NCBI GenBank assembly: GCA_015146655.1
Contig: VKHL01000008.1
Span: 186,001 to 250,000 of the forward strand
Direction: 5' to 3'
Length of the DNA stretch: 64,000 nt
Source of the DNA: Ochromonas danica
Lineage: Eukaryota > Sar > Chrysophyceae > Chromulinales > Chromulinaceae
Numbering within the stretch: the stretch's first letter is position 1; each line of letters begins with the position of its first letter. A program made the position numbers and the translations under genes. The notes below the pieces were generated by a model, which had not been told where the DNA came from, made no database searches, and was given only the letters and a program-made list of their open reading frames with translations. This document shows, piece after piece, positions 3,353 through 34,484 of this stretch.

Positions 3353-3469
3353 CGCAATGGATTGATTGATTGTATACTATTGCTCTTTTGCGTGGGAAGA
3401 TCTGGAGATATAGAGATTTGGAGATTTGGAGCTCTAATGGTCTGGAGATCTAGGGAAGAGCTTGTGCTG
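3353..3469. promoter_or_regulatory. Divergent promoter of ADAT1 and ankyrin(-transporter), unit 1
   Basis: Only 117 bp separate the ADAT1 start (-) from the chimera start (+). The gap contains short repeats of the type GGAGAT(A/T)T. A shared bidirectional promoter is inferred from spacing alone. The same gap occurs at 8569-8685 and, before the intact ankyrin gene, at 13735-13851. Confidence 0.5.
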
Positions 3470-4807
3470 ATGGACAGATCTCAAGCTGTGGAAATGGATT
3501 TATGGGATCCTCTCCTCGACGCTGTCCTACAAGGGGAAGAAAACCTCGTTCAGCTCTATATTTCTATGGGAGCGAACCTGTCCACTCTTTGTGACCAGGA
3601 GGGGCGAGGAGTTCTGCACTGGAGCGCGGCCACTCCCTCTGGGGAGCTTCTCGTGCCGCTTCTCATTGCCAAGGGCATTGGTGCTGCGCCCATGATTGTC
3701 GCCTTCTACTTCAGATGGAAGATGCACGAGACTGATTGGGAACTAGAAGCCAAGGTAGCATTGATTCATGTTTTATCAATAACTGTTGCATTCACACGAA
3801 TCTGTCTGATTTTAGGTTATTGAACAAAAAGTGATTCACAATCACCATCTCGAAGGTCATCAACACACGCACTTGTCCCCCGTAGTGCAATACTTCAAAG
3901 AAGGATATTATTTCATCAAAGAAACTGTCTACCAGCATCGCTGGAGATTACTTGGAACGGCGGGAGCTTGGTTTATTCTTGATGTGGCGTTCTATGCCAA
4001 CAGCTTGTTTTCAGGACAAGTGACAACATCCCTGGGAGTAGCGAAAACCCCTCAAGGCGAGGCATTAGCATCGCTGTTTTTACAATTGATTGCTCTGCCT
4101 GGATATATTTGCACGATCTTCTTCATTGAGAAAATCGGCATAATCAGACTTCAATTGATGGGATTTTTTGCAACGGGCGTTTTCTGCATTATTATTGGTG
4201 GTGCCCAGCCGGACCTGGTGAATGTAAGTTTGCAACACAGCAAAGTCAATTCTTTGTCTCATTTCCCATTGTTGCAATAGCTCCCGGCCCTTTACATCAT
4301 TCTCTATGGACTAACGTTCTTCTTTCAGGTAAGAGTTTGGTTAGAATTGGCTAGATGCTGTTTAACACTAAATCACTGTTGGGATGATGGTGTTGCTATT
4401 GACAGAACTTCGGTGCCAATGCTACTACCTATATTGTGCCCTCCTTGGCCTATCCAACGTCTCAACGATCTACCTGTCATGGTATGTCGGCTGCAGCAGG
4501 GAAGTTGGGTGCTATTCTGGGCGCAGAGACCTTTCTCTATATTGCCGACTGCTATTGTCATGGTGATGTTTGTGGGAAAAATGCCGACAAAGAACTGGTG
4601 AATCGCGGTTTGCGAGTAACATTCTTCGTATGCGGTGCTATCGCGTGGAGTGGGCTTGGTTGGACTTACGTATTCTTACCTGAAGATGTAGTTCAAGGAG
4701 AGCATACCACAAGTTATGAAGCACTCGAGTCTACAAAAACAGAAGCCGAAAATAAACAGACTAACAACGAAACTCTTGCTATCGAAATGAAAACTTTGGA
4801 AGTGTGA
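3470..4807 (+). CDS. Chimeric ankyrin-phosphate transporter (C-terminal half), copy 1
   Basis: Four exons: 3470-3754, 3816-4223, 4281-4328 and 4406-4807, all with GT-AG introns and matching phases, giving 380 aa. Residues 1-69 are identical to the start of the intact ankyrin protein at 13852. Residue 70 onward is the C-terminal half of a PHO84-type MFS phosphate transporter. The piece begins at the end of helix 6 and the cytosolic motif KMHET, then helices 7-12, including [13 protein letters not shown] and [13 protein letters not shown]. These match [13 protein letters not shown] and [13 protein letters not shown] of the intact transporter at 57248. The join falls exactly on a codon boundary after Gly69. 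A six-helix half is unlikely to transport phosphate by itself. It could make a stable membrane protein or be a non-functional by-product of duplication. It should be driven by the ankyrin promoter. Confidence 0.82.
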
Positions 4808-5438
4808 GTATACCTACCTGAGCTCAAGAATGTGGAGGAGACTCCGTGGGGGTCTGGTAGGACTTCTATTGCTATTTGGCTCTGTTCTTGGGCTAAACGG
4901 CGATTGGACAATGACGAGCCATTTCATTTTTTGTTTTTTTGTATTCCTATTCCTAATTTGTTTTCCTAATACCCATTGGAGATGGATTTTGTGTGGACTA
5001 GACAGACTTTTTGTACTTGCTACTTTTGCCCAACAGTCCTTTTGAAAGTTACTACTGGTGGTGATTGTAATTTTAAATTCAAAACTGATCAAAAGTTGGC
5101 TTCCCAGCTGAATGATGTTAATGATATCCCAGCGGGGAGCTGTTTAACGCATTTTTCAAGGACAGCATCGTCTCGTGACTTGGGCATGACGTTTGCCAAA
5201 TCCGAAATCCACTTCTCGATGGAGGACTGCATTGTGCAATTGCGAAGTGTCTGCTGTGGTGTTCGTCTGTCTGCCGCGTGGTTTGAAGTTGCGCCTCTGG
5301 GCCTGAGAGGTGGTTTGAAGTTGCGCCTCTGGGCCTGAGAGAGAGAGAACCGCTTCCGGGCTCCTGCCCGGGACAACCTTGAGCCCAGCTCACTCTTAAA
5401 TCTACACCAAAGACTTTGAAGCCAAAGAAATCGAAGGG
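4808..5438. other. Spacer between chimera and 366-aa gene, copy 2
   Basis: About 630 bp holding the 3' end of the transporter-derived gene and the promoter of the 366-aa gene. It includes the 32-bp tandem duplication unique to unit 2 and a short GA run. Reverse-strand ORFs here lack any recognisable protein feature, and I treat them as chance. Confidence 0.5.
5281..5340 (+). repeat. 32-bp tandem duplication unique to unit 2
   Basis: A 32-bp segment beginning TGGTTTGAAG and ending CCTGAGAGG is present twice in a row here but once in units 1 and 3. It lies about 100 bp upstream of the 366-aa gene in its presumed promoter. Confidence 0.93.
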
Positions 5439-6539
5439 ATGGATAACCACGACATCCACATAGAACCTCTTGTTCCAAGGAGGCCCGACAGAAGAGTTCC
5501 ATGGAGGATTGTTTGGAAGAAGTTGCCTGCTTACATGGTTGCTCACGAGTTCAATTTGCAACACAAGGGGTTAAATCTTGCACATGTAGAGTTTATTCCA
5601 GTTCAACGAGATGAACGCTACCAGGACGATGAAGAGAGCTTGAGGAGGCTCAATGAATTCAGTAGGTTTGTGGCAGCTATTCGCCGCTCATTTTCCTTGT
5701 CCCTCAAGACTGCCGGTGCTGCTGCGGCTATTTTGGCGGAATTGGGAGACAGAAGATTGGAGCTAAGAAAGAAGTGTATTCTGGGCAAGTACTATGCCCA
5801 CGATTACTTCAAGAATGAGCTTTTCTCTTGGAGATTTGCGAACCTGTGTCTCTTGAATTTAGTACATGAATCTCCATTACTTGCACAGCTTTATGCGAAG
5901 AAACTCTTCGAAGCGATAGACCGTCGCATTCCCCCCTTGAAACTAATGGATGATCACAAGCACTACTTTCATTCTGAGCTGAATGGCGAAGACGTGTATA
6001 AAGGGAAAGGTATTCTATTGGCTATTTATATCCGACAGCTCGGCGAAAAGGAGTTTTCTTTACGCTTTCCTGGTTTGGATAATTTTTATATCCGACAGCT
6101 CGGCGAAAAGGAGTTTTCTTTACGCTTTCCTAGTTTGGATAAGTTGAAGGAATTTATTCCCAGCGGTGAAAAAGCCATTGCTCACTTTCAAAAGCTTGAC
6201 TTACCCACTGGTGGATTGGACAAGGCTATTGAAGAATTAAATACAGATGAACAGAAGAAAAATACAAAATGGGACGAATTATTCTTCTTCGTTAAGTATT
6301 TGGACTATGCGGTTCAGCTAGTGGACAAGTGCAATGAAGTTAAAACTGCAGTGTTTTATGCCGCGACCTTTCTCTCGAACTTCCTCAAGTGTCCACGAGG
6401 TTCTTTTGCAAGGTTGGCCGGTGACGTCAGACTGCGTGTGTGCTTCTATCACTATCTTGCCAATGTGCCATACAGCGGGCGCAAGACTAAGAATACCTTG
6501 GGCACGGAGGAACAACCACGCAAGAAGCCCCGTCATTAA
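5439..6539 (+). CDS. Unknown 366-aa protein, array copy 2
   Basis: The predicted protein is identical over all 366 residues to copy 1, including the internal 20-residue repeat pair (encoded at 6021-6140) and the basic C-terminus. The only change near it is the 32-bp duplication upstream. I do not recognise the family. No domain, membrane helix or signal peptide is visible. Its stop faces the ADAT1 stop about 300 bp away. Confidence 0.75.
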   Translation: MDNHDIHIEPLVPRRPDRRVPWRIVWKKLPAYMVAHEFNLQHKGLNLAHVEFIPVQRDERYQDDEESLRRLNEFSRFVAAIRRSFSLSLKTAGAAAAILAELGDRRLELRKKCILGKYYAHDYFKNELFSWRFANLCLLNLVHESPLLAQLYAKKLFEAIDRRIPPLKLMDDHKHYFHSELNGEDVYKGKGILLAIYIRQLGEKEFSLRFPGLDNFYIRQLGEKEFSLRFPSLDKLKEFIPSGEKAIAHFQKLDLPTGGLDKAIEELNTDEQKKNTKWDELFFFVKYLDYAVQLVDKCNEVKTAVFYAATFLSNFLKCPRGSFARLAGDVRLRVCFYHYLANVPYSGRKTKNTLGTEEQPRKKPRH

Positions 6540-6840
6540 TCTTTGTTTTACCACTTTACAAGTATAACCACAAGTATCGATCCTTTTTGACCACTGATGT
6601 AGTTCGATCGAACTTCACTGCTCTTGCCTTCTTTGTTTTGCTTTAATCATATTTACTTCAATGCTACTATAAAAACAATGAGAATTGTTGGCGATGCCAA
6701 GCTAATACATGTAATTCTAATTAACAACTGATCACTCATTTAAGTCCAGGACAGTACTGTACTGTGCTTGTCTATCTTCCTTCCTATCAGTTCAAGAGCA
6801 AGCAAGCATGTGTAACTCAAGGGGAACAGCAGAGTAATCG

Positions 6841-7732
6841 TCAACTGTTCTGTGGCCCACGCTTTCGAACCCAATCCCCCAGACAGGTTGCCGAGGATTT
6901 CAACTGAGCTTTAGCTGCCGCATAAGATTTGGAAGCAGCTTTCCACTGATGGAGTCCATGAAGTTCAGAAAGATGGACAAGATCAGGAGAGGAAGAGGCG
7001 ATCTCTCGTATGGTCTCGAAGAAGCTCTCGGCAGACAACTGGCTGCTCTGCCCAGAGCACGTAAAGCCTGTATGGCTGTCAATTACTTCCATCGCGAAGC
7101 AATCGGCTGGCAGCCAGTCTCTGGGCAAGACGCCCTCAGGGCAGATCGATCCTCTTCCCTGAGCCTTCTCGTCTTGTTGGTCTTCTTCCCACCGCCGCGG
7201 ATTCAACCAGGCCACAAAGCATCTGGCTTCATCGAATAATGCCCCACTGCGGGTAGCTTGGTCCTCGACTGGCTGGCAAAGAAGGCTTCCTTGATCAAAT
7301 TTGATTTTGGAGGTGAGCATGGCGGGATGGTGTGTGACAAAGAGTGGCCCATCTCCATCATCACCATCATCTCCTTCTTCTTCCTCCTTCACAGGATATG
7401 ATGAGGATGGTTCCTCTCTCTGTCGCTTCTTGTCTCTCTTGTTGCCTTTCCTCTGCTTCGTGGCTATTTGGTTGTTGTTATTGTTGTTGTTGTTAGGAGG
7501 GAATGAGAAGTCTCTGATGCGGCAACAAAGAGCTCTGCGACAATGTGCTTCACTGAACTTCCGGCCAATCGTGAGAGAGGACAGATAGAGAGGCTCTTGT
7601 AGAAGCAAAGACAGCAGTGCACCTTGTATACCCACTGCATTCCACAAGGCGATCTTGTCGCTGCACGTCATCACATTGCCCAAGCCACTGTGCACAGGGG
7701 CAGTGCCAGGAGGGGCGACAACCAAAGCAGTG

Positions 7733-7794
<62 letters not shown>

Positions 7795-8568
7795 TTGGCT
7801 TCTTCCACTGTTGACCTTCACCAAAGGCATCACCTCTCCTTCTGTCGTGGCGGTGGGCCAAAATGTCGGATGCGGCAGGTCGGGCAGGTCGTCTTCGGAC
7901 AGCTCGACTCTCTCCACCACACGCTTGGCCTTGGCCCACTTCTTGATGCAAGCATTGCCACATGGCTGGGAGGAGGAGTAAAGGTGCAGAGAGACGCCAG
8001 GCTTGAGGCGGTACCTCCTCCTCCTCCTGCTACTACTACTACTGCTGCTGCTACAGTCTGTCTGCAGGAAGGAAGACTGCCGCCCAGAGGCGATCGCATC
8101 GCAGCAGAACCGCAAGAAAGCCCTTCGAGCGAGCACTTCTGCGTGCATGTCTCTCAGATACCCATCTCCTCCTCCTCCTCCTCCTCCAGGGTGAGAGCTA
8201 CCGTCACTATCACTGTCACTGTCGCTCTGCATCTTGCTGGCTGAGAGAGTTTTCGTGCCCACGCCCAGCCCCACCACATGCAGTCTCACCCGACCTCCTC
8301 CTCCTCCACTACATGCACCTCCTTCGTCTTCTTCCTCTAAGTCTTGCTCTTCAATGCGCATGAGGACAGTGGCTAGCACGGTCTGCTGATAGACCAGGTC
8401 CTCTGGGCAGAGCTGGCGGAAGGTCTCGATGCTCAACGACGCCACGCGGTCTGCCCATTTACAAGATGACACGGGTCGCTCTTTCTCAGCGCTTCTCTTC
8501 AAGGTCGGGGTTGGGGTAGAGGTGGAGGTGGAGGTGGAGGCTGGTCTCTCAGTCTCATCTTCAGCCAT
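6841..8568 (-). CDS. ADAT1: tRNA-specific adenosine deaminase 1 (ADAT1), array copy 2
   Basis: Intronless 575-aa ORF, the same as copy 1 except that the Ala run has 12 more residues (19 Ala, from 20 CAG triplets). All zinc and catalytic motifs are intact (HAEVLARRA, QPCGNAC, CSDKIALWN). The longer Ala run lies between the second and third zinc ligands, so it is probably an exposed loop. Length variation of this size in coding sequence, with the rest invariant, indicates replication slippage after duplication. It is divergent from the chimera at 8686. Confidence 0.92.
7734..7793 (+). repeat. (CAG)20 microsatellite in ADAT1 copy 2
   Basis: Twenty perfect CAG triplets, the longest of the three copies. 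They are read as poly-Ala (GCT) on the minus strand. Confidence 0.97.
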
Positions 8569-8685
8569 CGCAATGGATTGATTGATTGTATACTATTGCT
8601 CTTTTGCGTGGGAAGATCTGGAGATATAGAGATTTGGAGATTTGGAGCTCTAATGGTCTGGAGATCTAGGGAAGAGCTTGTGCTG

Positions 8686-10023
8686 ATGGACAGATCTCAA
8701 GCTGTGGAAATGGATTTATGGGATCCTCTCCTCGACGCTGTCCTACAAGGGGAAGAAAACCTCGTTCAGCTCTATATTTCTATGGGAGCGAACCTGTCCA
8801 CTCTTTGTGACCAGGAGGGGCGAGGAGTTCTGCACTGGAGCGCGGCCACTCCCTCTGGGGAGCTTCTCGTGCCGCTTCTCATTGCCAAGGGCATTGGTGC
8901 TGCGCCCATGATTGTCGCCTTCTACTTCAGATGGAAGATGCACGAGACTGATTGGGAACTAGAAGCCAAGGTAGCATTGATTCATGTTTTATCAATAACT
9001 GTTGCATTCACACGAATCTGTCTGATTTTAGGTTATTGAACAAAAAGTGATTCACAATCACCATCTCGAAGGTCATCAACACACGCACTTGTCCCCCGTA
9101 GTGCAATACTTCAAAGAAGGATATTATTTCATCAAAGAAACTGTCTACCAGCATCGCTGGAGATTACTTGGAACGGCGGGAGCTTGGTTTATTCTTGATG
9201 TGGCGTTCTATGCCAACAGCTTGTTTTCAGGACAAGTGACAACATCCCTGGGAGTAGCGAAAACCCCTCAAGGCGAGGCATTAGCATCGCTGTTTTTACA
9301 ATTGATTGCTCTGCCTGGATATATTTGCACGATCTTCTTCATTGAGAAAATCGGCATAATCAGACTTCAATTGATGGGATTTTTTGCAACGGGCGTTTTC
9401 TGCATTATTATTGGTGGTGCCCAGCCGGACCTGGTGAATGTAAGTTTGCAACACAGCAAAGTCAATTCTTTGTCTCATTTCCCATTGTTGCAATAGCTCC
9501 CGGCCCTTTACATCATTCTCTATGGACTAACGTTCTTCTTTCAGGTAAGAGTTTGGTTAGAATTGGCTAGATGCTGTTTAACACTAAATCACTGTTGGGA
9601 TGATGGTGTTGCTATTGACAGAACTTCGGTGCCAATGCTACTACCTATATTGTGCCCTCCTTGGCCTATCCAACGTCTCAACGATCTACCTGTCATGGTA
9701 TGTCGGCTGCAGCAGGGAAGTTGGGTGCTATTCTGGGCGCAGAGACCTTTCTCTATATTGCCGACTGCTATTGTCATGGTGATGTTTGTGGGAAAAATGC
9801 CGACAAAGAACTGGTGAATCGCGGTTTGCGAGTAACATTCTTCGTATGCGGTGCTATCGCGTGGAGTGGGCTTGGTTGGACTTACGTATTCTTACCTGAA
9901 GATGTAGTTCAAGGAGAGCATACCACAAGTTATGAAGCACTCGAGTCTACAAAAACAGAAGCCGAAAATAAACAGACTAACAACGAAACTCTTGCTATCG
10001 AAATGAAAACTTTGGAAGTGTGA
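8686..10023 (+). CDS. Chimeric ankyrin-phosphate transporter (C-terminal half), copy 2
   Basis: Second copy of the in-frame chimera. Exons are 8686-8970, 9032-9439, 9497-9544 and 9622-10023, giving the same 380-aa product: 69 ankyrin-protein residues followed by transporter helices 7-12. The protein and splice sites match copy 1. Two intact copies of a chimeric ORF with working-looking splice sites show that no disabling change has built up since the duplication. That may reflect youth rather than selection. Confidence 0.82.
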
Positions 10024-10622
10024 GTATACCTACCTGAGCTCAAGAATGTGGAGGAGACTCCGTGGGGGTCTGGTAGGACTTCTATTGCTATTTGGCTCTG
10101 TTCTTGGGCTAAACGGCGATTGGACAATGACGAGCCATTTCATTTTTTGTTTTTTTGTATTCCTATTCCTAATTTGTTTTCCTAATACCCATTGGAGATG
10201 GATTTTGTGTGGACTAGACAGACTTTTTGTACTTGCTACTTTTGCCCAACAGTCCTTTTGAAAGTTACTACTGGTGGTGATTGTAATTTTAAATTCAAAA
10301 CTGATCAAAAGTTGGCTTCCCAGCTGAATGATGTTAATGATATCCCAGCGGGGAGCTGTTTAACGCATTTTTCAAGGACAGCATCGTCTCGTGACTTGGG
10401 CATGACGTTTGCCAAATCCGAAATCCACTTCTCGATGGAGGACTGCATTGTGCAATTGCGAAGTGTCTGCTGTGGTGTTCGTCTGTCTGCCGCGTGGTTT
10501 GAAGTTGCGCCTCTGGGCCTGAGAGAGAGAGAACCGCTTCCGGGCTCCTGCCCGGGACAACCTTGAGCCCAGCTCACTCTTAAATCTACACCAAAGACTT
10601 TGAAGCCAAAGAAATCGAAGGG
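10024..10622. other. Spacer between chimera and 366-aa gene, copy 3
   Basis: About 600 bp equivalent to 4808-5438 but without the 32-bp duplication. It contains the presumed promoter of the 366-aa gene. No gene seen. Confidence 0.5.
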
Positions 10623-11714
10623 ATGGATAACCACGACATCCACATAGAACCTCTTGTTCCAAGGAGGCCCGACAGAAGAGTTCCATGGAGGATTGTTTGG
10701 AAGAAGTTGCCTGCTTACATGGTTGCTCACGAGTTCAATTTGCAACACAAGGGGTTAAATCTTGCACATGTAGAGTTTATTCCAGTTCAACGAGATGAAC
10801 GCTACCAGGACGATGAAGAGAGCTTGAGGAGGCTCAATGAATTCAGTAGGTTTGTGGCAGCTATTCGCCGCTCATTTTCCTTGTCCCTCAAGACTGCCGG
10901 TGCTGCTGCGGCTATTTTGGCGGAATTGGGAGACAGAAGATTGGAGCTAAGAAAGAAGTGTATTCTGGGCAAGTACTATGCCCACGATTACTTCAAGAAT
11001 GAGCTTTTCTCTTGGAGATTTGCGAACCTGTGTCTCTTGAATTTAGTACATGAATCTCCATTACTTGCACAGCTTTATGCGAAGAAACTCTTCGAAGCGA
11101 TAGACCGTCGCATTCCCCCCTTGAAACTAATGGATGATCACAAGCACTACTTTCATTCTGAGCTGAATGGCGAAGACGTGTATAAAGGGAAAGGTATTCT
11201 ATTGGCTATTTATATCCGACAGCTCGGCGAAAAGGAGTTTTCTTTACGCTTTCCTGGTTTGGATAATTTTTATATCCGACAGCTCGGCGAAAAGGAGTTT
11301 TCTTTACGCTTTCCTAGTTTGGATAAGTTGAAGGAATTTATTCCCAGCGGTGAAAAAGCCATTGCTCACTTTCAAAAGCTTGACTTACCCACTGGTGGAT
11401 TGGACAAGGCTATTGAAGAATTAAATACAGATGAACAGAAGAAAAATACAAAATGGGACGAATTATTCTTCTTCGTTAAGTATTTGGACTATGCGGTTCA
11501 GCTAGTGGACAAGTGCAATGAAGTTAAAACTGCAGTGTTTTATGCCGCGACCTTTCTCTCGAACTTCCTCAAGTGTCCACGAGGTTCTTTTGCAAGTGAC
11601 GTCAGACTGCGTGTGTGCTTCTATCACTATCTTGCCAATGTGCCATACAGCGGGCGCAAGACTAAGAATACCTTGGGCACGGAGGAACAACCACGCAAGA
11701 AGCCCCGTCATTAA
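10623..11714 (+). CDS. Unknown 363-aa protein, array copy 3
   Basis: Same protein as copies 1 and 2 except for an in-frame 9-bp loss at about 11595 that removes three residues (RLA or equivalent) after CPRGSFA, leaving 363 aa. The internal 20-residue repeat pair and basic tail are kept. No recognised family. The in-frame nature of the only coding change is weakly consistent with a maintained protein. Confidence 0.75.
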   Translation: MDNHDIHIEPLVPRRPDRRVPWRIVWKKLPAYMVAHEFNLQHKGLNLAHVEFIPVQRDERYQDDEESLRRLNEFSRFVAAIRRSFSLSLKTAGAAAAILAELGDRRLELRKKCILGKYYAHDYFKNELFSWRFANLCLLNLVHESPLLAQLYAKKLFEAIDRRIPPLKLMDDHKHYFHSELNGEDVYKGKGILLAIYIRQLGEKEFSLRFPGLDNFYIRQLGEKEFSLRFPSLDKLKEFIPSGEKAIAHFQKLDLPTGGLDKAIEELNTDEQKKNTKWDELFFFVKYLDYAVQLVDKCNEVKTAVFYAATFLSNFLKCPRGSFASDVRLRVCFYHYLANVPYSGRKTKNTLGTEEQPRKKPRH

Positions 11715-12015
11715 TCTTTGTTTTACCACTTTACAAGTATAACCACAAGTATCGATCCTTTTTGACCACTGATGTAGTTCGATCGAACTTCACTGCTCTT
11801 GCCTTCTTTGTTTTGCTTTAATCATATTTACTTCAATGCTACTATAAAAACAATGAGAATTGTTGGCGATGCCAAGCTAATACATGTAATTCTAATTAAC
11901 AACTGATCACTCATTTAAGTCCAGGACAGTACTGTACTGTGCTTGTCTATCTTCCTTCCTATCAGTTCAAGAGCAAGCAAGCATGTGTAACTCAAGGGGA
12001 ACAGCAGAGTAATCG

Positions 12016-12907
12016 TCAACTGTTCTGTGGCCCACGCTTTCGAACCCAATCCCCCAGACAGGTTGCCGAGGATTTCAACTGAGCTTTAGCTGCCGCATAA
12101 GATTTGGAAGCAGCTTTCCACTGATGGAGTCCATGAAGTTCAGAAAGATGGACAAGATCAGGAGAGGAAGAGGCGATCTCTCGTATGGTCTCGAAGAAGC
12201 TCTCGGCAGACAACTGGCTGCTCTGCCCAGAGCACGTAAAGCCTGTATGGCTGTCAATTACTTCCATCGCGAAGCAATCGGCTGGCAGCCAGTCTCTGGG
12301 CAAGACGCCCTCAGGGCAGATCGATCCTCTTCCCTGAGCCTTCTCGTCTTGTTGGTCTTCTTCCCACCGCCGCGGATTCAACCAGGCCACAAAGCATCTG
12401 GCTTCATCGAATAATGCCCCACTGCGGGTAGCTTGGTCCTCGACTGGCTGGCAAAGAAGGCTTCCTTGATCAAATTTGATTTTGGAGGTGAGCATGGCGG
12501 GATGGTGTGTGACAAAGAGTGGCCCATCTCCATCATCACCATCATCTCCTTCTTCTTCCTCCTTCACAGGATATGATGAGGATGGTTCCTCTCTCTGTCG
12601 CTTCTTGTCTCTCTTGTTGCCTTTCCTCTGCTTCGTGGCTATTTGGTTGTTGTTATTGTTGTTGTTGTTAGGAGGGAATGAGAAGTCTCTGATGCGGCAA
12701 CAAAGAGCTCTGCGACAATGTGCTTCACTGAACTTCCGGCCAATCGTGAGAGAGGACAGATAGAGAGGCTCTTGTAGAAGCAAAGACAGCAGTGCACCTT
12801 GTATACCCACTGCATTCCACAAGGCGATCTTGTCGCTGCACGTCATCACATTGCCCAAGCCACTGTGCACAGGGGCAGTGCCAGGAGGGGCGACAACCAA
12901 AGCAGTG

Positions 12908-12960
<53 letters not shown>

Positions 12961-13734
12961 TTGGCTTCTTCCACTGTTGACCTTCACCAAAGGCATCACC
13001 TCTCCTTCTGTCGTGGCGGTGGGCCAAAATGTCGGATGCGGCAGGTCGGGCAGGTCGTCTTCGGACAGCTCGACTCTCTCCACCACACGCTTGGCCTTGG
13101 CCCACTTCTTGATGCAAGCATTGCCACATGGCTGGGAGGAGGAGTAAAGGTGCAGAGAGACGCCAGGCTTGAGGCGGTACCTCCTCCTCCTCCTGCTACT
13201 ACTACTACTGCTGCTGCTACAGTCTGTCTGCAGGAAGGAAGACTGCCGCCCAGAGGCGATCGCATCGCAGCAGAACCGCAAGAAAGCCCTTCGAGCGAGC
13301 ACTTCTGCGTGCATGTCTCTCAGATACCCATCTCCTCCTCCTCCTCCTCCTCCAGGGTGAGAGCTACCGTCACTATCACTGTCACTGTCGCTCTGCATCT
13401 TGCTGGCTGAGAGAGTTTTCGTGCCCACGCCCAGCCCCACCACATGCAGTCTCACCCGACCTCCTCCTCCTCCACTACATGCACCTCCTTCGTCTTCTTC
13501 CTCTAAGTCTTGCTCTTCAATGCGCATGAGGACAGTGGCTAGCACGGTCTGCTGATAGACCAGGTCCTCTGGGCAGAGCTGGCGGAAGGTCTCGATGCTC
13601 AACGACGCCACGCGGTCTGCCCATTTACAAGATGACACGGGTCGCTCTTTCTCAGCGCTTCTCTTCAAGGTCGGGGTTGGGGTAGAGGTGGAGGTGGAGG
13701 TGGAGGCTGGTCTCTCAGTCTCATCTTCAGCCAT
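12016..13734 (-). CDS. ADAT1: tRNA-specific adenosine deaminase 1 (ADAT1), array copy 3
   Basis: Intronless 572-aa ORF with 16 Ala in the variable run (17 CAG triplets) and otherwise the same sequence as copies 1 and 2. The catalytic HAE, PCG and Cys motifs are all present. It lies divergent, 117 bp from the intact ankyrin gene at 13852. This arrangement probably preserves the ancestral ADAT1-ankyrin pair. Confidence 0.93.
12909..12959 (+). repeat. (CAG)17 microsatellite in ADAT1 copy 3
   Basis: Seventeen perfect CAG triplets, read as Ala codons on the minus strand. Confidence 0.97.
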
Positions 13735-24890: not shown

Positions 24891-25628
24891 TCAGTATCGC
24901 ACGAGTCGCTCTAGTGGCCAGCTGAGCTCTGAGTCAAGTGTGGCATGGTAAGGGTCAAAGTAGAACTCCACGAAGTCTTGCAGGGAAAAGAAAAGGTCAG
25001 ACGAAGCCAATGCGATGATAAGATTCTTCCCTGGAAGCTTGTCGGCGAATCTATAACACACCACCACACAATCAGTCACTGTAAGTCAGTGGCGTGGATG
25101 AACAACAGCTTACTTGGAGATCTCGAGCTCTTCTTGTGGTTGTTCCTTCAGCTTATTGCCAACATCTAACAGCTTGGTGGACATCTCATAGACAATGTCC
25201 AGACTGTTCTCCTCTGTGAGTTCTTCCAGACTCCTTTGTTCTTGAAGGACACAAGAATACCATTCAGGGAAGAAGCGTTTGGGTCGGTCTTCAGTGTCAA
25301 AGACAATGGCACCAGATTGAATAGGTGCACTGCCTAAGAAGTGACCGTGTCCCGCCAGATTGCTCAATATCCTCAAAACAGAGTAACAAGGACCTTCTAA
25401 CAGGTGGAGGATTGATGTGACCTGCCCCATCAAAATGCCCGTAACATTGGCTTCTTCTTTGTTGACTTCTTCTTCCACAATGGCGCGGTGGACTTGCAGT
25501 GCATCGACAAGGTCTTGCTCAGACCTCACCTGACCACAGTAAATGATCGTTGTCAGCCCTCCTTCAGGAATAGCCTTACGGCGCACTTCACTGAGGTGGG
25601 AAAGAAGAGAAGGCTCCTCAGGATTCAT
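24891..25628 (-). CDS. TEX47: TEX47-like protein with BLUF-type fold
   Basis: Two exons, 25628-25114 and 25050-24891, give 224 aa. The protein matches the layout of animal TEX47 (C7orf62): a central GILM..TSILHLLEGP block typical of the BLUF-like ferredoxin fold, a middle RFFPEW segment and the characteristic C-terminal FYFDPYHATLDSELSWP. In animals the gene is testis-expressed, and homologs are expected where flagella are built. Whether it binds flavin is unknown. I do not see the Tyr/Gln photochemistry signature clearly, so light sensing should not be assumed. The intron sits just before FADKLPGKN. Confidence 0.75.
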
Positions 25629-25989: not shown

Positions 25990-27546
25990 ATGTCCTGTGT
26001 TGTGGTTGGAAGTGACGACGGAGGAGTTGTCAGTAGGAAGGCCGTATCGATGGTGAAGAGAGTAGTGATTGAGGAGCGGCGAGGGGTAACCATCTGCTTC
26101 AATGACTTGAAGAACTACTGGAAGCCTCATGTCACACTAGACGTGGTCCTCGCTTATCACGAAGAGTTCTCCTGTCTGGAGCTGGTTGCCTATTACCCTG
26201 AAGCTAACCTCGAAGCTCCTCGCCTCTACCTCGCTATCAAACCCATTCTCAATCAGATCGACGCTGCTGACATCGAATGGCGAGTGGCGGAGAAGAAAGA
26301 GCATCTGCTTCGCATAAAACATCGCTGTGAAGAGGAAAGTGTCGTGAAGGAGGTAACCTTAGGTTTAGTCTCAGCTTATGTTCTCTCACGGTTAGCCTTC
26401 GAACAACGTGCTAACGATGGAGAAGGAGACAACAAGATGTCTCTGCATGTCTTCCTGGCCCCCACAGAATGTGATGGAATAGGAGAAGAGCCCACGTCCT
26501 GTCTCATCGATCCTGTTCTCCGCGCCAAACCAACGAAACTCGATCCACTCGTTGTAGTCTTCCCCAAGAAGTCTCATTATAGGTTAGGCAATGCCATGTC
26601 GTTGATTCATCTGCCAACTAACAAGTGATTAATACAACCATTGCCTTACAGCAAATCGGAAGTAGCAGCAGCAATGCACAATGTTCAAGTTGAGGCTGCT
26701 CAAGCTCGCCAAGCCACTCATTTGGCATCATTAGCCATTTCCTCTGTGGATGGCTTCCGAGTCTTCTTGGCCCATCGTCTTCAATGGAAGAACTACTCTC
26801 CTGCGAGAATACTCTGGATCAAGGCAATCAATAGAGTGCTTTCTCAGAACTATGTTGCAAAAGTTAGAGCCCGACTAGAGGTTTTGGAGAGAAGACAAAA
26901 GGCTCGTGAGCAAAGGCGATCAGCGGGTGATGCTCTTCCCTGCGCCAATAAAGCCAGCAAACCTCCCAGAATTCTCAGGAGGAGCTTTGATGGATTGTGT
27001 CTTCCTCCAATCAGACCAGACCTGCGCCGATTAAAGACTTCTACGACAGCAGGGCTTGGAGCAGAAGATGGCTTTGTGGAGGGAAAAGAGCAGAAGAGTG
27101 CGAAAGAAGCAACCGCCACCATTCTCAAACCTAATGGTGAAGCCCTCCTGCTGGAGGAGAAGAAAATGTTGCACCAACTAAGTAAGGAGAAAAGTCGTCG
27201 TAAGAGCCTGAGTTTGCTTCATGCATCCTCTTCCCTAAGTCATCAAACAGTGTTGAGCGAAGGGTGTGCTGAAGCAAACAGTCCTCCTGGTGGTACCGCT
27301 GGTGTGCCTCCGAGTATCCGCAGAAACAGCTTGATGATGTCTACCAACAGTCTTGTAGCTGCTCGTCCTAGTCTATCGTCTCACTCTTCTATGAGTCCTT
27401 TGAAGACAGAAGATGATTGTGATTCTCCTCCTTCCTTGATCGATAGCTTCGTGAGCAAGTCTTCTGTCAGCACAACACTTCTCCCTTCACACCCTTTATA
27501 TCTGCCGAGTGACGCCTTAGCTCGCACGCTGAATTGCCATCTCTAG
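25990..27546 (+). CDS. Novel family, paralog 1 (495 aa)
   Basis: Two exons, 25990-26582 and 26652-27546. It is one of three paralogs in this window (29885, 33091). N-terminal domain (about residues 20-197): FNDLKNYWKPHVTLDVVLAY, then CLELVAYYPEANLEAPRLYL, ending in a hydrophobic strand with VVVFPKKS. Next a helical stretch with YSPARILWIKAINRV and PRILRRSFD. Then about 180 residues of Ser-rich disordered sequence, and a conserved C-terminal signature PSLIDSFVSKSS...DALARTLNCHL. No membrane helix or known catalytic motif. An alternative start at 26050 would remove 20 residues. The intron (phase 2, right after the FPKK strand) is at the same place as in paralog 3. Soluble cytosolic adaptor or cytoskeletal roles are conceivable, but the function is unknown. 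Confidence 0.8.
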
Positions 27547-27853
27547 ATGTGCTTCTATTTACCTATACCATGCAGTTTTACCTAACTATATTCATCTGCC
27601 ATTCCTTATTTTATGTGAACTCTTCAATGTCTACGAGCCCTTGATTGATGAGCTGTGATTAGCTTTTAACAGTTCTTTAGTATTTTAGTTATTGTTATTA
27701 TTATTTCTTTGAATTTAGGACATAGAAGACTCATTCGTATCAAACTTACGAGTTGTCAAATATACTAGATTGAAAATGCTTGATGGTTGAACAAGCGAGC
27801 ATTTTCATCTGCTGATCTCACTTTATTTCCCGCTGCTAACAACGTCTTTGACT
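27547..27853. other. Convergent 3' region
   Basis: 307 bp of A/T-rich sequence between the stops of paralog 1 (+) and the type I membrane protein (-). It includes a run of TTATTATTA type. Nothing else seen. Confidence 0.5.
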
Positions 27854-29548
27854 TTATGGTGTTGTTGCAACTTTGAGATACCTGTGGTAGAATATCGCTG
27901 TAAAAGCTAAAACAATGAAATAGCCTATGAATGCTATCATGACTGTATGCATAGCAAGCTGATCGCCTTCGCTTTCATTACCACCTTTGCTACTGGAGCC
28001 AGAATCGCTCGGTAATACCATGGACTCATTCACCAACACACTCTGCAGCATTGCATCTGCAACAATACTGCCTTTTCGAGTAGAGATATCATCTTTCCAT
28101 ACGTTTACAACACGGCAGTCGTTATAAGTTGTTCGCCATTGCTGAACTTTTTCATCCAGCATAGCATTGATCTCTTTTCTAATGGGACCTTGGAGAGCTC
28201 CAGTGATCACTTGAGAAGAAAGGTTGCGGAATGCCACAGGGGAAGTGAATAACAGAAAAGAAGTGTCAATTACATCTATAAAGTCAGTATCCAAACTTGT
28301 GAGGCCGCTCTGCGGATATATCGAGAGATCTTGCGGCTCCTGCTCAACCAGTAAATTGGCAACAGCGAACTGTTTGACACCTCCTAACCAGCAATTTGTG
28401 GATAGAAATAACTCCAACGGATTGCTTGGTACTCTGTCTTTCTTAATCGCTAAGATAATATCCACTGAGATATCTACATTGATCCAAGTCGCTGTCAGAG
28501 TCAAGGGTTTACTTGATAGACCACAAGAAGAAGTGTTAACAATGTGGACTAGATCAACATCAATTTCAATTAAACGAAAGGTCCATTTGCTTTGAAGCAA
28601 AGATGAGCAATTTGCTACAGGCTCCAGCAGTTGGAAAGAAGTCAAAGTGTTGAAACCTCGCACTCGCAATTCCTGCAATCGCGCAGATACAGCAGAAGAA
28701 AGCTCTACTTGCTGACCATAAAATTGCCGAGTTGCGAACATTTCAACCGACTTCATACTTTCTTGAATCAATGAAGAAAAAGTTGAGTATATAGAAGGAG
28801 GGATAGAAAAGCAGGAGAAACTTTGAAGGGTCTCTCTTGAAGTCAAGGCTTGAACGAATCGATAGAAATAACCGTACATACTATTACTCCAATCGATAAC
28901 TTCAGAATCATTCTGTGAGCATGCTGGCCTTGGTTGTTGCTGACCAATCAATAGCATGATCTGGGGATTTAGTTGATTAGTCAGCAAAGACGAAGCAACT
29001 TCATCATATATTGGCTCCAAGGATGGGCAAATACTACCTCGAACTTGGCTTTCGATGATCGATGCGACCAAAGGTGCGAATACATTCAAGACAGGACTTG
29101 CAAAGTCAACTTGTACGTTCAGATCTTGGACAGAGCAAGAGGTAAGATTGGCTGCCACCGGCAGATTGTCCTGCTTTTCAATGACAGTTGTTAGAGCTAA
29201 TGTAGAGCTGATATCAGTGCGCACATTTCTAGATAGACCGTCATAGCGATAGCTTCCCTTGCATGACGTGGAAAGTCTTTTGAACTGCACCAATAGACTA
29301 GTGGGTGGGAGGTATCGCGAGGAAATAGACGACAACATCAATCGTCTACAGGAAAGGCCTTTAACTGTCACATCTTCGACACCTGCTGGAAAAGAGAGGT
29401 CCGAAAAGGTGTACGTGAATGAACTCAACAAGCACGAAATCAGTGATTCGTTAGTTGCAAGAGTGGATAAGGTCAGAGATTGCACCATGACAACAACCAC
29501 CAGCCAGCATGACATGCAGGAGGCCAACATCGATAGTACCCATCTCAT
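27854..29548 (-). CDS. Type I membrane protein with probable BPI/TULIP-like ectodomain
   Basis: Intronless 564-aa protein from the ATG at 29548. An upstream in-frame ATG at 29593 would place 15 polar residues before the hydrophobic leader, so the later start is preferred. There is a signal peptide at residues about 1-30 (RWVLSMLASCMSCWLVVVVM), a long Cys-containing ectodomain with many N-glycosylation sequons, one C-terminal membrane helix (VMIAFIGYFIVLAFTAIFY) and a short basic cytosolic tail. The stretch IIESQVRGSICPSLEPIYDE resembles the conserved Cys-containing helix of BPI/LBP-type lipid-binding (TULIP) domains, and the length would allow two such barrels. That family call is tentative. 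It sits between paralogs 1 and 2 on the opposite strand. Confidence 0.7.
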   Translation of the reverse strand: MRWVLSMLASCMSCWLVVVVMVQSLTLSTLATNESLISCLLSSFTYTFSDLSFPAGVEDVTVKGLSCRRLMLSSISSRYLPPTSLLVQFKRLSTSCKGSYRYDGLSRNVRTDISSTLALTTVIEKQDNLPVAANLTSCSVQDLNVQVDFASPVLNVFAPLVASIIESQVRGSICPSLEPIYDEVASSLLTNQLNPQIMLLIGQQQPRPACSQNDSEVIDWSNSMYGYFYRFVQALTSRETLQSFSCFSIPPSIYSTFSSLIQESMKSVEMFATRQFYGQQVELSSAVSARLQELRVRGFNTLTSFQLLEPVANCSSLLQSKWTFRLIEIDVDLVHIVNTSSCGLSSKPLTLTATWINVDISVDIILAIKKDRVPSNPLELFLSTNCWLGGVKQFAVANLLVEQEPQDLSIYPQSGLTSLDTDFIDVIDTSFLLFTSPVAFRNLSSQVITGALQGPIRKEINAMLDEKVQQWRTTYNDCRVVNVWKDDISTRKGSIVADAMLQSVLVNESMVLPSDSGSSSKGGNESEGDQLAMHTVMIAFIGYFIVLAFTAIFYHRYLKVATTP

Positions 29549-29884
29549 CTTCCTAAAAGAGATTATGGCATTTTCACTGCCAGTGAGGATCATCCAGTGA
29601 GGATGATGGATCAGCAGTCTATCATCTCATCCTCCTATCGGATCATCCAATTCATTTATTCACACAATCATCATCATCATCATTTGCCGGTCTTCTTATA
29701 TTGCGGCCTTGTGAAAAGCCGAAAAGAGCAGTTAAAACTCTCTTTTTCTTCCCACCGGTCATGTTAATCGGAAATGTCGTGGAGCTCACTGCTGACTTCT
29801 TCCACACTTCTTTCTCAACGACCAGCAAGAAGAACTGTTGTGCAGATAACCGCTATTGCTTCATGACTTATTGAATGATTAATC
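29549..29884. promoter_or_regulatory. Divergent intergenic region before paralog 2
   Basis: 336 bp between divergent starts. It contains repeated GGATCATCCA-type motifs (about 29588-29597 and 29640-29649) and a short ATC run at about 29667-29682. No gene. Confidence 0.4.
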
Positions 29885-31024
29885 ATGATGAACAGATGGC
29901 GCAAGGCTCATATTGATCAGCAGAATGCGAAGAGTGAACTGGAAATATTGTTCAATGACTGCAAAATGTATTGGCGCCCGCGGGTCACTTTAGACATTGT
30001 TATCGCCCATCATATTTTGAAACGTTGCTTGGAAATTATTGTTTATCGCGCTGAATTGAAAGCCGAGGCTCCTCGAATTTATCTGAGCACTCCCAAAGTG
30101 GTTCGTCTCTTAGACAAGCATGAGGTGGAGTGGAAATTGAAGGCGTTGGAAAAGGCACGCGCAGACGCGGTTGATAGCTTCGGCGACGCTGACAGAAATA
30201 AAGGGCCTATTTTAGAAACAGTTCTCAATGAGGCCATCTCCCTCTTCATCCTTGATCGCCTCGCAGTGAAAACCAACACTGATGGCCGCCTGGCCATGAC
30301 CTTCATGCCTCGTAGAGGAGAAGATGTGCTTTATGATGATTTTGGTGCTGCTACTTCTCTCAGCAAGAAATGCTGCCCTCCTGGTATTGTTCCTTTAAAA
30401 GCAATATTCCTCTCAGCCGCGTCGACTTCTCCTGCAGTTTCAATCGCTCTAAGGGTGTTCCTAGAATCACTGCATGAATGTCAGCTTCGATTGAAGTCAC
30501 CCGACTTGGCGAGAAAGAGATGGCTAATTGCCAAAAGAAAGGTTGTATTCCGAGAAGCCCTCAAGAGGACATTAGCGGTTCTTCATCCTCTATTTCCTGG
30601 TTCTTGGGAAACGTCAACTGCAAAGTACAAAGTTGATGGGAGTGTTGCGTCATCTACTGAATCATTTGGATCTCAAGAGAATTGTGATCTAGAAGGTGCT
30701 CCTCGACGCAGAACTTCGGTTTGTCGACGTGGTTCAGCTCTGCCAGCATTGCAGCACTCAAAGAGCTCCATTATCGATACCGCTGCTGCAATGAGAAGAT
30801 CACGCGTTAATACGCTTCCCACCTCTCCAGGTGAAGATCGTTCTTCAGTGCGTTCTTTGGATCGTATTCCTCAATCCAATGCCAGTTCTCCTTCAAAAGT
30901 TGTTCAGCTGCCCAGCTTGGCAGAGAGCTTTGCCAGCAAGGCCTCGTTGAATCCTTCCCCTCTATGTAAGCCAGGCTATTCTTTGCAAGATGCTATCACC
31001 CGAGCGATACATTGTGAATTATGA
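29885..31024 (+). CDS. Novel family, paralog 2 (379 aa, intronless)
   Basis: Single exon. The N-terminal domain has FNDCKMYWRPRVTLDIVIAHH and CLEIIVYRAELKAEAPRIYL, closely matching paralogs 1 and 3. The helical segment is shorter, with KSPDLARKRWLIAKRKV. The Ser-rich linker carries several RR-x-S sites, and the C-terminal signature is PSLAESFASKASLN...DAITRAIHCEL. It lacks the phase-2 intron shared by the other two, which suggests intron loss or copying through RNA. It also lacks the PRILRR motif. Function unknown. Confidence 0.8.
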   Translation: MMNRWRKAHIDQQNAKSELEILFNDCKMYWRPRVTLDIVIAHHILKRCLEIIVYRAELKAEAPRIYLSTPKVVRLLDKHEVEWKLKALEKARADAVDSFGDADRNKGPILETVLNEAISLFILDRLAVKTNTDGRLAMTFMPRRGEDVLYDDFGAATSLSKKCCPPGIVPLKAIFLSAASTSPAVSIALRVFLESLHECQLRLKSPDLARKRWLIAKRKVVFREALKRTLAVLHPLFPGSWETSTAKYKVDGSVASSTESFGSQENCDLEGAPRRRTSVCRRGSALPALQHSKSSIIDTAAAMRRSRVNTLPTSPGEDRSSVRSLDRIPQSNASSPSKVVQLPSLAESFASKASLNPSPLCKPGYSLQDAITRAIHCEL

Positions 31025-31937
31025 TGTTCTGGTATATTTTATGTGTTTGTGTACAAACGATTTTATGTGTTCCACCCAGTTATTGTGTACTGTCCCAACT
31101 CGCCCTTATGTATCAGATAGAAGAAAGTGGTGTCAGAATTCCAATGATAGTACAGGCGATCTTTGAACATCTGTGTCCGTACGTCTGCTGTATGCCTTTG
31201 TTTTTGTGAGAGCATTATGTGCGGTGTAAGTGCACCGTATTGTTAGTATAAGAATATCATGAAAAGAGTTTCATTGTAAATTAATGAACAATGGTGCACA
31301 ATTTTGTTGCACGCTATTGGCCAGACATTGCCCCTGATCGTTTGCCTGAGCAATCAAATGTGATCAAGATCGGGTATCATATCATCCGTGGTGTCATTAT
31401 ATTTTAATTAATTGCAATAGAAGTCAGAGAAGTTCTCCAGATCATTATCGTCGATTTCCGTTGGCATTGGATATCTTGTAAGTACAAGCACAGAGAGATC
31501 GACAACACAATCATTGCATGGTACTAGACAAACGAGAGCGAGGGATGTGTAGATGGAGAGATGACGAAGGTCGGGATTCTACGCGATGAAGAAGTTAGAT
31601 CGTATGAGCGTTGCTGCTTCGTGGTCAAACACAAGAGCGATGTATTCAAAATAATACCGGTGAATTTAATTGGTCATTAAGCCATTAGAACACATACTAA
31701 CAAGCCAAAACTTTAAAGCACGGCTCGTTGGGATGACAGCGGCCCAGAGCTAAATAACTTCTGTAAACCACCACCTTATGTAAACGTACTTCGACCTAAA
31801 AGTCGCGAAGAAATACGCTAATATAATAGTATATGGGAGAACTGACACAAACAACACAAAGTATTCAACAAAACAACCCAGCATACCTAAACACATCTTA
31901 TGTTCAATTAAAAGATCAGTATTACTGGCCCCAAGAA
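31025..31937. other. A/T-rich intergenic region
   Basis: 913 bp between the stop of paralog 2 and the stop of the NTF2-like gene. No ORF with protein-like composition and no tRNA-like folding pattern noticed. Both 3' UTRs lie here. The length is larger than most gaps in the window. Confidence 0.45.
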
Positions 31938-32810
31938 TTAGAACTTGAGGTATTTCTGTAAAGGCAAATAGTACTTCTCCGGGGCATCAATATCACTGAA
32001 GATATCGATAGTATCAATATAGCCATTCTCATCCATATGCATAATCACAAAGCCTTCACCACTAGCGTCTATGGGTTCAATGCATTGATTCCCCTCCCAG
32101 ATCGCGGGAACGTCTTCGCATCGGCGAATCAGATCTACCATCTCATCTGCTTGAGGACCTTGAGCAGCCAGGCTCACATTTGACTCTTTCACCACCACCA
32201 CATTACCTTGATCCAACAATCGCTTGATCTTTTGTTGATCCTCGGAAATTGGAGGGTAGTATAGTAAGGTGGAACAGAAGTATACTCGATTGACGATAAG
32301 ACAACTCCCATCGGCGCGCACTCGAATCTCACTATTTAACACTCGTATGGACATGTCAGGGACATATTCTCCGAAGGAAAAGGCGTATCTCGCCATCTTT
32401 TCCACACCTCGGAGCATGGTAATATATGAGAAAGCTTTATCCAATACTTTAAGACTAGGACTATAGTCCGTAAAACGAATATCTGGGCGACAGTATTGAT
32501 CAAGAAAGCTCTGAATCATTGCCTTGTCACAGGAATTAGTAACATTAGCCAACATCAGGGGAATATTTCGTCTTAGATCATCTTTTGGAAGCCGAATGCG
32601 CTTCACACAAGTTCTGCGGCGAGCATTTCTACGCTCACGTGCTTCAGCCGAAAGAGGAGGATATTTGCGCTTGGGAGCGGTTGTTGAAGATGGGGCGAGC
32701 TCATTCAGCTCACCATTGGTGCTTAACAAGAACGCATCGTCTACGGGGCTGTCAAGCAGGAGGATGTCCTGTAAAATGGAATCATCATCAATCGATGAAT
32801 AGTCCATCAT
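31938..32810 (-). CDS. Basic-region plus NTF2/SnoaL-like protein, 290 aa
   Basis: Intronless. Residues about 1-45 are acidic, with the motif DDDSILQDILLLDSP, like an activation segment. Residues about 47-75 contain a basic patch (KRKYPP and ARERRNARRRTCVKRIR) resembling a bZIP basic region, but no leucine zipper follows. Residues about 95-180 have the pattern of an NTF2/SnoaL-like cone fold (QSFLDQYCRPDIRFTDYSPS, then alternating strands to VYFCSTLLYY). The C-terminus is acidic and ends in LPLQKYLKF. A nuclear regulator is a reasonable guess from composition, similar to degenerate bZIP-like proteins of stramenopiles. DNA binding is not shown. Two adjacent ATGs begin the ORF. Confidence 0.7.
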   Translation of the reverse strand: MMDYSSIDDDSILQDILLLDSPVDDAFLLSTNGELNELAPSSTTAPKRKYPPLSAEARERRNARRRTCVKRIRLPKDDLRRNIPLMLANVTNSCDKAMIQSFLDQYCRPDIRFTDYSPSLKVLDKAFSYITMLRGVEKMARYAFSFGEYVPDMSIRVLNSEIRVRADGSCLIVNRVYFCSTLLYYPPISEDQQKIKRLLDQGNVVVVKESNVSLAAQGPQADEMVDLIRRCEDVPAIWEGNQCIEPIDASGEGFVIMHMDENGYIDTIDIFSDIDAPEKYYLPLQKYLKF

Positions 32811-33090
32811 CCCTTTCTTCCTTCGTGTCTTTCAGCAGGTGCAGGTGTTTGTTTTTGCCATAGACTGGTCCACTGTAATCATCGCGCACGGGTGTGGGGC
32901 ATGGGGGGTGAGCTGGCGGAAGATGGACTAATAACCTCGAATAATAGAGTTTTGAATTAACCCGCAGTAGAGAGACAAGAAAGTGAATGAATGTCTTGCA
33001 CCATAGTCTAGTTGAGATGAAATGCAACAACGAATATATAATGATCTAACAGACTCTCTCTTGTTGATCTCATTTTGAAGCTTGCAAATA

Positions 33091-34484
33091 ATGGCTTTCA
33101 TCTCGAAAAAACTGGATGTGAGCCAAACTATTGTGGAAATAAAAGGCGATGAAGAGATTTGGTTCAATGACTCGAAACGATTTGTGAAACCCAGAGTAAC
33201 GATCGATATTGTGATGATCTATCATCAATTGATGGACTGTTTGGAAATTATTGGCAATCATCCGCAGCAGGAACGAGAAGCACCTCGCATTTATCTCAAT
33301 GTGTCCGTCTTGCACAATCTGGTCATCGACCAGAAAGAAGTTGATCGAAGAGTGGAGGAAAGACTTGAAATGAACATTCGGAACAAGAAAGTCACTGAGA
33401 AATCTGAGGTGGTTGAGGCCGTAGAGCACGACATGTTGATGAGTCACCTGTTGTCGCACCTCCGAGTCGTGGAGGACGAGGGACTGGCTGCGGGCACTTC
33501 CTTTACAATCACCTTGCTGGCCCCTGGCACAGCAAAAGAAGAGGAAGGTGAACAGTTAAATTATCACAATGTCAGCGCTATTTTGCCGAGCAAGCCCTCT
33601 GAAGTAATCCCTTGCGTTGTCTTCTTTCCCAAGAGATTCAATATGAGGTAATAACAGTGTTTCCACTACCCCTTTTTGATGTGAGGCTTACCGTCGCATT
33701 GCTGCTATTGTGTTGTGCTTCTAGTACGAAAGATTTTATGTCTTCATTACATGACATGTCTCAAGAAATTCGTCAACTCGCTCATGTGGCATCTGTCTTA
33801 GTTGACAATATTCACGTCAGCCGGGCCCAGGTTCGACTTCGCGATTATGCGCCTGCGCGAAAGCGCTGGCTGACGGCTATTAAGAAGGTTCAGAACATTA
33901 ACATGGTGAACAAAGTTCGTGTTCGACTTGATGCTATAGCCCAACGGGATGCAAGGAAGGCCGCCAAAGATGAGCTAAATGCTGCTCGTGCACATCCTCG
34001 TATTCTGCGTCGTACCCTTGATCACCAACCTTCGGAGGATAAACAAGTTGTTTCTCCGTCTCGAAGACTTCTTTTGAAACCAGCTACTCTCCCTCATATC
34101 CAATTTTATAAGGAAGAGGGAACAGGTGATGATCGAAGATCTCCCTGTAGTTCTCCTCTGCGCAGTTTACAACGATCGTCCACCTTGGGTGTGGGATCTG
34201 GCAAACGTCGAGAACGAGCTTTAACGTTTGAGCCATCTCCGACTTCGACTGCAGGGATGCAGAGAATGCCGTTCCATGATAAATGCGATCGCGACAAGCT
34301 GTTACCTGCTTTCGGACTTGCCAGTTCCTCATCTGGTGGATCTACGACTGGTCGTGATAGCCCCACTCTTGTAGAGAGCTTTGTTCACACTGCTAGTAGA
34401 TCCCCTCGTCCTGTGAGCAGTCGTGCCTATGATCCGAGCTACGCTTTGGCTGTGACTATGAAATGTGACCTTCCCTCGCCTTGA
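33091..34484 (+). CDS. Novel family, paralog 3 (438 aa)
   Basis: Two exons, 33091-33647 and 33725-34484. The ATG at 33091 is used; upstream in-frame codons lack an ATG. The N-terminal domain has FNDSKRFVKPRVTIDIVMIY and CLEIIGNHPQQEREAPRIYL, ending in VVFFPKRFNM. The helical part contains DYAPARKRWLTAIKKV and PRILRRTLD, nearly the same as paralog 1. The Ser-rich linker ends in the C-terminal signature PTLVESFVHTAS...YALAVTMKCDL. The intron position and phase equal those of paralog 1. It lies 280 bp from the divergent NTF2-like gene, repeating the +/- alternation seen at paralogs 1 and 2. Confidence 0.8.

Follow-up and report, generated by a model that had tools for sequence, protein, structure and literature searches.

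An N-terminal domain, undescribed in the libraries searched, is carried by at least 21 genes of the Ochromonas danica assembly in four architectures

Results

The N-domain is found in at least 21 genes

Three paralogous genes in a 64,000-nucleotide stretch of the Ochromonas danica assembly (the window; bases 186001-250000 of contig C8) share an N-terminal domain of about 160 residues, called hereafter the N-domain. An earlier note on this DNA had described them as a three-member family. Consensus and profile searches of the whole assembly (31.2 Mb, 337 contigs) revealed that at least 21 genes carry the N-domain, which occurs in four settings, A to D. The window genes (genes 1, 2 and 3) start at 25990, 29885 and 33091 in the open-reading-frame list, all on the + strand. 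The N-domain motifs, the helix, the PRILRR motif of genes 1 and 3, the Ser-rich linker and the conserved C-terminal tail (C-tail) were all present, as had been noted. Coordinates are given in Table 1.

Searched against the assembly, gene 2 recovered genes 1 and 3 with E values of 8.7e-16 and 3.7e-11. The numbers of matching places, which are lower bounds, were at least 14 for gene 2, at least 16 for the N-domain of gene L002 and at least 18 for that of the gene on contig C131. A consensus N-domain query returned 22 rows, of which 19 were separate genes (E at most 5.8e-11), one was a further piece of the C44 gene and two were places on C14 (E 4.4e-4 and 0.36). Both C14 genes, each read from two overlapping pieces in the same frame, scored with a 19-sequence profile from which they had been left out (E 2.7e-14 and 7.6e-15, among 2,006 frames from loci in hand), and none of the reversed frames used as a control did so. 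The family is thus made up of at least 19 clear members and these two, neither of which entered the tree or the counts of introns and RRxS sites given below.

Six family genes are located on C8, the three of the window and three more at 333-348 kb. In a tree of the 19 N-domains, these six and one gene on C69 formed a single group (support 99/99), within which gene 3 and the C69 gene were sisters (99/99). The C69 gene is flanked by a minus-strand frame (L066, 7581-8363) related to the one between genes 2 and 3: the two share RLxKDDLRRxxPxMxxNVxN, and their alignment scored 89 over 38 residues, against a maximum of 53 in 300 shuffles. Neither has a usable Pfam match. Since both sister genes adjoin related frames, block duplication of the pair is probable, gene 3 and the C69 gene having probably moved together with their neighbour.

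With two short peptide patterns taken from the three window N-domains, no relatives were found among 93 pattern matches in viral contigs, nor among 51 in prokaryote contigs. The genome-wide search covered one eukaryote assembly, and the family, named or unnamed, may well occur in other stramenopiles.

The N-domain matches no family in the searched libraries

No Pfam-A match reached its curated cut-off within any N-domain, in scans of the window frames, eight N-domains, three consensus sequences, the two C14 genes, six more N-domains and the whole N-domain frames of C34, C70, C87, C112 and C183. The helix and the tails of settings A and B gave nothing at a useful level in Pfam (for the C85 gene, the part of exon 2 preceding the first ATG was left out of the scan). 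One consensus query gave no match in NCBIfam. Among PDB sequences, the best E values were 0.38 for an 8-sequence profile, 0.12 for the 19-sequence profile and 0.51 for the consensus. No published description of the family was found in literature searches at the level of titles and abstract openings. The earlier suggestion of an undescribed family therefore withstands the check for a known-family match that went with it, for Pfam, PDB sequences and, with one consensus, NCBIfam. As far as these libraries go, we provisionally consider the N-domain sequence undescribed.

A real possibility, to which we give a substantial minority share of our confidence, is that the N-domain diverged from a known fold and belongs to a distant branch of its superfamily; beta domains of the PH, C2 or DM10 kind, as in ciliary or membrane proteins, would be examples. 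The conserved core of the N-domain reads by eye as three strands (FNDxK..W; LEVVLVHH; DVLEVIAYDP) with RLYL and helices behind them, and the window contains a gene of the tubulin-tyrosine-ligase family (Pfam), which is compatible with a ciliated cell. The likeness to PH, C2 and DM10 domains is a presumed one. Against it stands the lack of a usable Pfam or PDB sequence match, although sequence methods overlook relatives at the level of the fold.

Four architectures share the N-domain

In setting A (7 genes), the N-domain is followed by a basic Trp helix (ARxxWxxAIxxV-like), a PRILR(R/K)-like motif, a variable linker and the C-tail. The motif is present in six of the seven genes, as PRILRR three times and as PRILRK, TRILRK and PKILRK; gene 2 lacks it, together with much of the first helix. 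Setting B (10 genes: C34, C70, C87, C44, two on C63, C85, C209, C12 and C131) consists of the N-domain and a long tail. In a comparison of tail pairs, of which only those with z > 4 were listed, islands common to some of these genes were seen, among them LRRALxFAKRILLDG, TRKLKARQ...YTFYxPG...KRLxxLGKQxS and YFDTSALH.

Setting C (3 genes: C112, C183 and the second C14 gene) combines an MGxxxS start, a C2H2-like finger of the jaz/met type (jaz E 0.0058, 0.01 and 0.023), the helix and the N-domain. The starts read by eye as MGSTSS, MGSSAS and MGGGSS, and the window genes have none of this kind. Such MGxxxS/T starts look N-myristoylation-like and would predict membrane attachment. In the A genes and in two C genes, the N-domain precedes the helix, whereas the helix is in front in the second C14 gene (helix profile match E 0.0012; helix residues 50-112, N-domain 110-289). 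Being found on either side, it behaves as a separate module would.

The fingers leave room for a reading of the family as transcription or RNA regulators, with the C2H2 members as nucleic-acid binders and the rest as their cofactors. We consider it quite improbable: each C gene has one finger only, Pfam scans of the remaining 18 genes gave no like finger (the C85 gene matched C2H2 over eight residues with E 0.019, a chance-level score), and the starts of the very members with fingers look like sites of N-myristoylation and membrane attachment. Known jaz/zf-met C2H2 proteins resemble the three C genes in having such a finger; the C genes differ from them in their sub-threshold matches, their myristoylation-like start and their N-domain.

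Setting D is represented by one gene, the first of the two on C14, in which the N-domain is joined in a single open frame to an F-box-like segment (Pfam E 0.0015, 18.8 bits for a cut-off of 20.5) and a PAS domain (PAS_9, E 8.3e-7, 29.7 bits, above the cut-off of 27). The other C14 gene has no PAS, and Pfam scans gave no F-box match in the other 20 family genes. An F-box-like stretch and PAS in one frame resemble the plant ZTL/FKF1 class, in which F-box proteins have a PAS-type sensor; the D gene differs in carrying the new N-domain, and no Kelch repeat was detected in the Pfam scans of its two loci, L073 and L075.

As modelled, the N-domain often lies on its own exon, and it shows signs of constraint

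Joining of the exons of gene 1 and of gene 3 gave translated products of 495 and 438 residues, each with a single terminal stop; gene 2 is an uninterrupted frame of 379 residues. The two introns had been absent from the earlier note. In the six intron-bearing A genes, the joint is in phase 2 and falls immediately behind the final conserved segment of the N-domain (as read by eye, and by translation for genes 1 and 3). A phase-2 GT-AG intron is possible at the same place in seven B genes (C131, C12, C44, both C63, C209 and C85), phase 2 having been picked among several possible solutions because of its better donor sites. As modelled, 13 of 19 genes can accommodate this intron, which puts the N-domain on its own exon; the remaining six are gene 2, C34, C70, C87, C112 and C183.

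For the two near-identical C63 genes, the ratio of non-synonymous to synonymous substitution rates (dN/dS) was 0.06 over the 160 codons of the N-domain, with one non-synonymous change, and 0.32 over the 438 codons of the tail exon. The synonymous rate of the N-domain exon (dS 0.048) was far below that of the tail exon (0.196), which suggests gene conversion. That the family should consist of lineage-specific, weakly constrained duplicates of little function, as the clusters (the six genes on C8 and the C63 pair itself) and the high divergence (a median of 0.87 for the end branches of the tree) might be taken to indicate, is very improbable in view of the low dN/dS in the N-domain of this recent pair, the motifs retained at 20-36% identity to gene 1 and the intron place retained as modelled.

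The C-tail of subfamily A is conserved across a free linker

Conservation outside the N-domain was measured in the seven A genes (21 pairs, 300 shuffles per pair), the only subfamily whose tails were tested. For the C-terminal 50 residues, 16 of 21 pairs scored above every shuffle, and two more were reached by one and three shuffles. In contrast, only one pair did so for the linker, with one further pair reached once. The helical region gave 16 of 21 pairs above every shuffle, and the remaining five all include gene 2. A PSL..SF-like core is present in the C-tail of all seven genes (PTLVESF in gene 3, PTVLDSY in L002), and a Cys-containing end in five; the C-tail motif was not seen in the other 14 family genes. 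Homologs with the C-terminal motif thus exist, and its proposed role as a docking motif gains from the test, a tail conserved beyond a linker that is not being the pattern that docking would predict.

Helices and RRxS sites suggest regulation

In eight of the ten helix-bearing genes, the helix fits a 1-5-8-14 hydrophobic pattern counted from the conserved Trp, with a net charge of +5 to +8. Among Trp-anchored windows of 27 other frames of the window (which include the tandem copies described below, four of the frames repeating others), the pattern occurred in 3 of 125 and the pattern with a charge of at least 5 in none; with any anchor, pattern and charge coincided in 0 of 10,157 windows. The 1-5-8-14 arrangement is the classical calmodulin-binding motif, whose prototype is skeletal muscle myosin light-chain kinase (PMC3794949). 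The eight helices resemble the prototype in Trp-first 1-5-8-14 hydrophobics with strong positive charge. The pattern is a spacing rule only, and no kinase domain was found in the family.

Outside the N-domain, 17 sites of the form [RK][RK]xS[LFIMV] (RRxS sites) were counted in 10 of 18 genes, where shuffling gave 3.0 +/- 1.6 and at most 9 in 500 runs. The near-identity of the two C63 genes led us to leave one of them (C63b) out of this count, and for C112 and C183 the region in front of the N-domain was used. As a control, 23 other window frames had 4 sites in 8,929 residues, versus 2.5 by shuffling, and the 19 N-domains had one site in 3,606 residues.

Discussion

A proposed adaptor or scaffold role for the N-domain

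The presence of the N-domain in many genes, often on its own exon as modelled, next to varied partner modules and to tails with conserved islands in otherwise free sequence, makes an adaptor or scaffold domain the best reading. We hold it tentatively, with confidence a little short of even: the N-domain would bind a partner, and the other parts of the proteins would carry docking and regulatory motifs. The partners would form a common class, be it protein, lipid or ligand. In subfamily A, the C-tail would dock a second protein. The basic Trp helix may be a calmodulin-type regulatory site, and a basophilic kinase may act on the RRxS sites. The F-box-like member suggests that the N-domain ligand could be brought to a ubiquitin ligase and, with its PAS domain, that the partner may either undergo ubiquitylation or provide a signal input.

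Several points weigh against the adaptor reading, which is drawn from sequence. The F-box match is just below the Pfam cut-off and concerns one gene of 21, whose N-domain lacks the RLY motif, and all three C2H2 matches are below theirs (the best at 17.2 bits versus 22.6). The tail conservation was measured within subfamily A, and even there the C-tail of L004 is near chance in comparison with three of the six other genes. As for the helix, the 1-5-8-14 pattern is broken by a Lys at position 5 in gene 2 and at position 14 in the second C14 gene, such hydrophobic spacing is common among amphipathic helices, and the sequences are homologous, so that the eight fits among ten genes do not count as independent. 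The RRxS pattern was selected after the tails had been read; the looser [RK][RK]x[ST] shows weaker enrichment (39 versus 20.0 +/- 4.0), and gene 3 has sites of neither form. Finally, with unequal dS in the two exons of the C63 pair, gene conversion may blur the dN/dS comparison.

If the adaptor reading is right, an unnamed multi-copy domain with a clear modular architecture joins algal genome annotation, together with parts that lend themselves to testing: besides the domain itself, a tail for docking, a candidate helix for calmodulin and, in one gene, a possible fusion to a ubiquitin-ligase component. A bolder version, which we think unlikely, is that the N-domain is a new stramenopile signalling-adaptor domain that ties the same class of targets to Ca2+/calmodulin, to kinase-controlled docking tails, to membranes and to ubiquitin ligases. 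Membranes would then be reached through the MGxxxS members and ubiquitin ligases through the F-box/PAS member, and the domain would be this lineage's own counterpart of SH2 or PDZ.

One nuclear genome or two

Two clearly different plastid-type rbcL genes are present in the assembly, at L061 1033-2499 (C193) and L062 1006-2496 (C289). Both are, we presume, of form ID. Since the two proteins differ, the assembly probably includes plastid sequence from another alga, be it prey, symbiont or contaminant. Next to one family gene, a frame starts with what we take, by eye, to be a bipartite plastid leader. The rbcL genes and this leader point to an ochrophyte alga as the probable source of the assembly. 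Two nuclear genomes were considered as the source of paralog pairs and judged less likely: ribosomal protein S3Ae was found at a single locus, which favours one nuclear genome, and COG6_N gave one strong match and one weak match below the cut-off. Nor do the contigs fall cleanly into two groups by base composition. One nuclear genome with foreign plastid sequence is the likelier state; were there two algae after all, some of the 21 genes would be orthologs from the second.

Gene arrangement and other features of the window

Table 1. Positions of the family genes and intervening frames in the window, and of three family genes elsewhere
Feature	Position	Strand	Remarks
Gene 1, exon 1	25990-26582	+	N-domain about 26086-26568; from open frame, splice joint and N-domain alignment
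Gene 1, intron	26583-26651	+	69 nt, phase 2, GTTAGG...TTACAG
Gene 1, exon 2	26652-27546	+	Helical region, PRILRR, Ser-rich linker, C-tail
Gene 1, basic helix	26803-26892	+	ARILWIKAINRVLSQNYVAKVRARLE...; 1-5-8-14 pattern at Trp
Gene 1, PRILRR motif	26965-26982	+	
Gene 1, conserved C-terminal 50 residues	27394-27543	+	PSLIDSF...ALARTLNCHL
Frame between genes 1 and 2	27854-29593	-	579 residues; outside the N-domain family; no Pfam match
Gene 2	29885-31024	+	N-domain about 29942-30409
Gene 2, helix	30509-30598	+	ARKRWLIAKRKVV...; Lys at position 5, outside the 1-5-8-14 pattern
Gene 2, conserved C-terminal 50 residues	30872-31021	+	PSLAESF...HCEL
Frame between genes 2 and 3	31938-32810	-	Relative adjoins the C69 family gene
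Gene 3, exon 1	33091-33647	+	N-domain about 33151-33641
Gene 3, intron	33648-33724	+	77 nt, phase 2, GTAATA...TTCTAG
Gene 3, exon 2	33725-34484	+	Helical region, PRILRR, linker, C-tail
Gene 3, basic helix	33855-33944	+	ARKRWLTAIKKVQNINMVNKVRVRL...; fits the 1-5-8-14 pattern
Gene 3, PRILRR motif	33996-34013	+	
Gene 3, conserved C-terminal 50 residues	34332-34481	+	PTLVESF...KCDLPSP
Near-identical pair, L056 and L057	139 kb and 151 kb		Contig C63
Setting D gene, two pieces	L073 3-1505 and L075 783-1850	-	Contig C14, single open frame

An alternation of the paralogs with opposite-strand genes had also been proposed. It holds for both gaps of the window, each with a single minus-strand frame, and for one of the two gaps of the second, three-member cluster on C8, which makes three gaps of four: one gap of that cluster has a minus-strand frame of 1435 residues, but the other has two + frames (of at least 150 residues). 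The alternation is probably incidental. By eye, the frame between genes 1 and 2 has a hydrophobic stretch close to both ends.

Upstream of gene 1, a minus-strand frame of 172 residues (25110-25628) gave a Pfam match to TEX47 (E 1.5e-12) and a BLUF match below the cut-off. Near the start of the window (259-13734), three tandem copies follow each other at a spacing of about 5.18 kb, each with a + frame of 363-366 residues and a minus-strand frame of 563-575 residues. In the first copy, the minus-strand frame has an adenosine-deaminase (editase) domain (E 5.9e-46), and the + frame, scanned in this copy, has no Pfam match. The copies vary slightly in length and their aligned bases, gaps not counted, are 100% identical, which points either to an assembly artefact or to tandem amplification in the very recent past.

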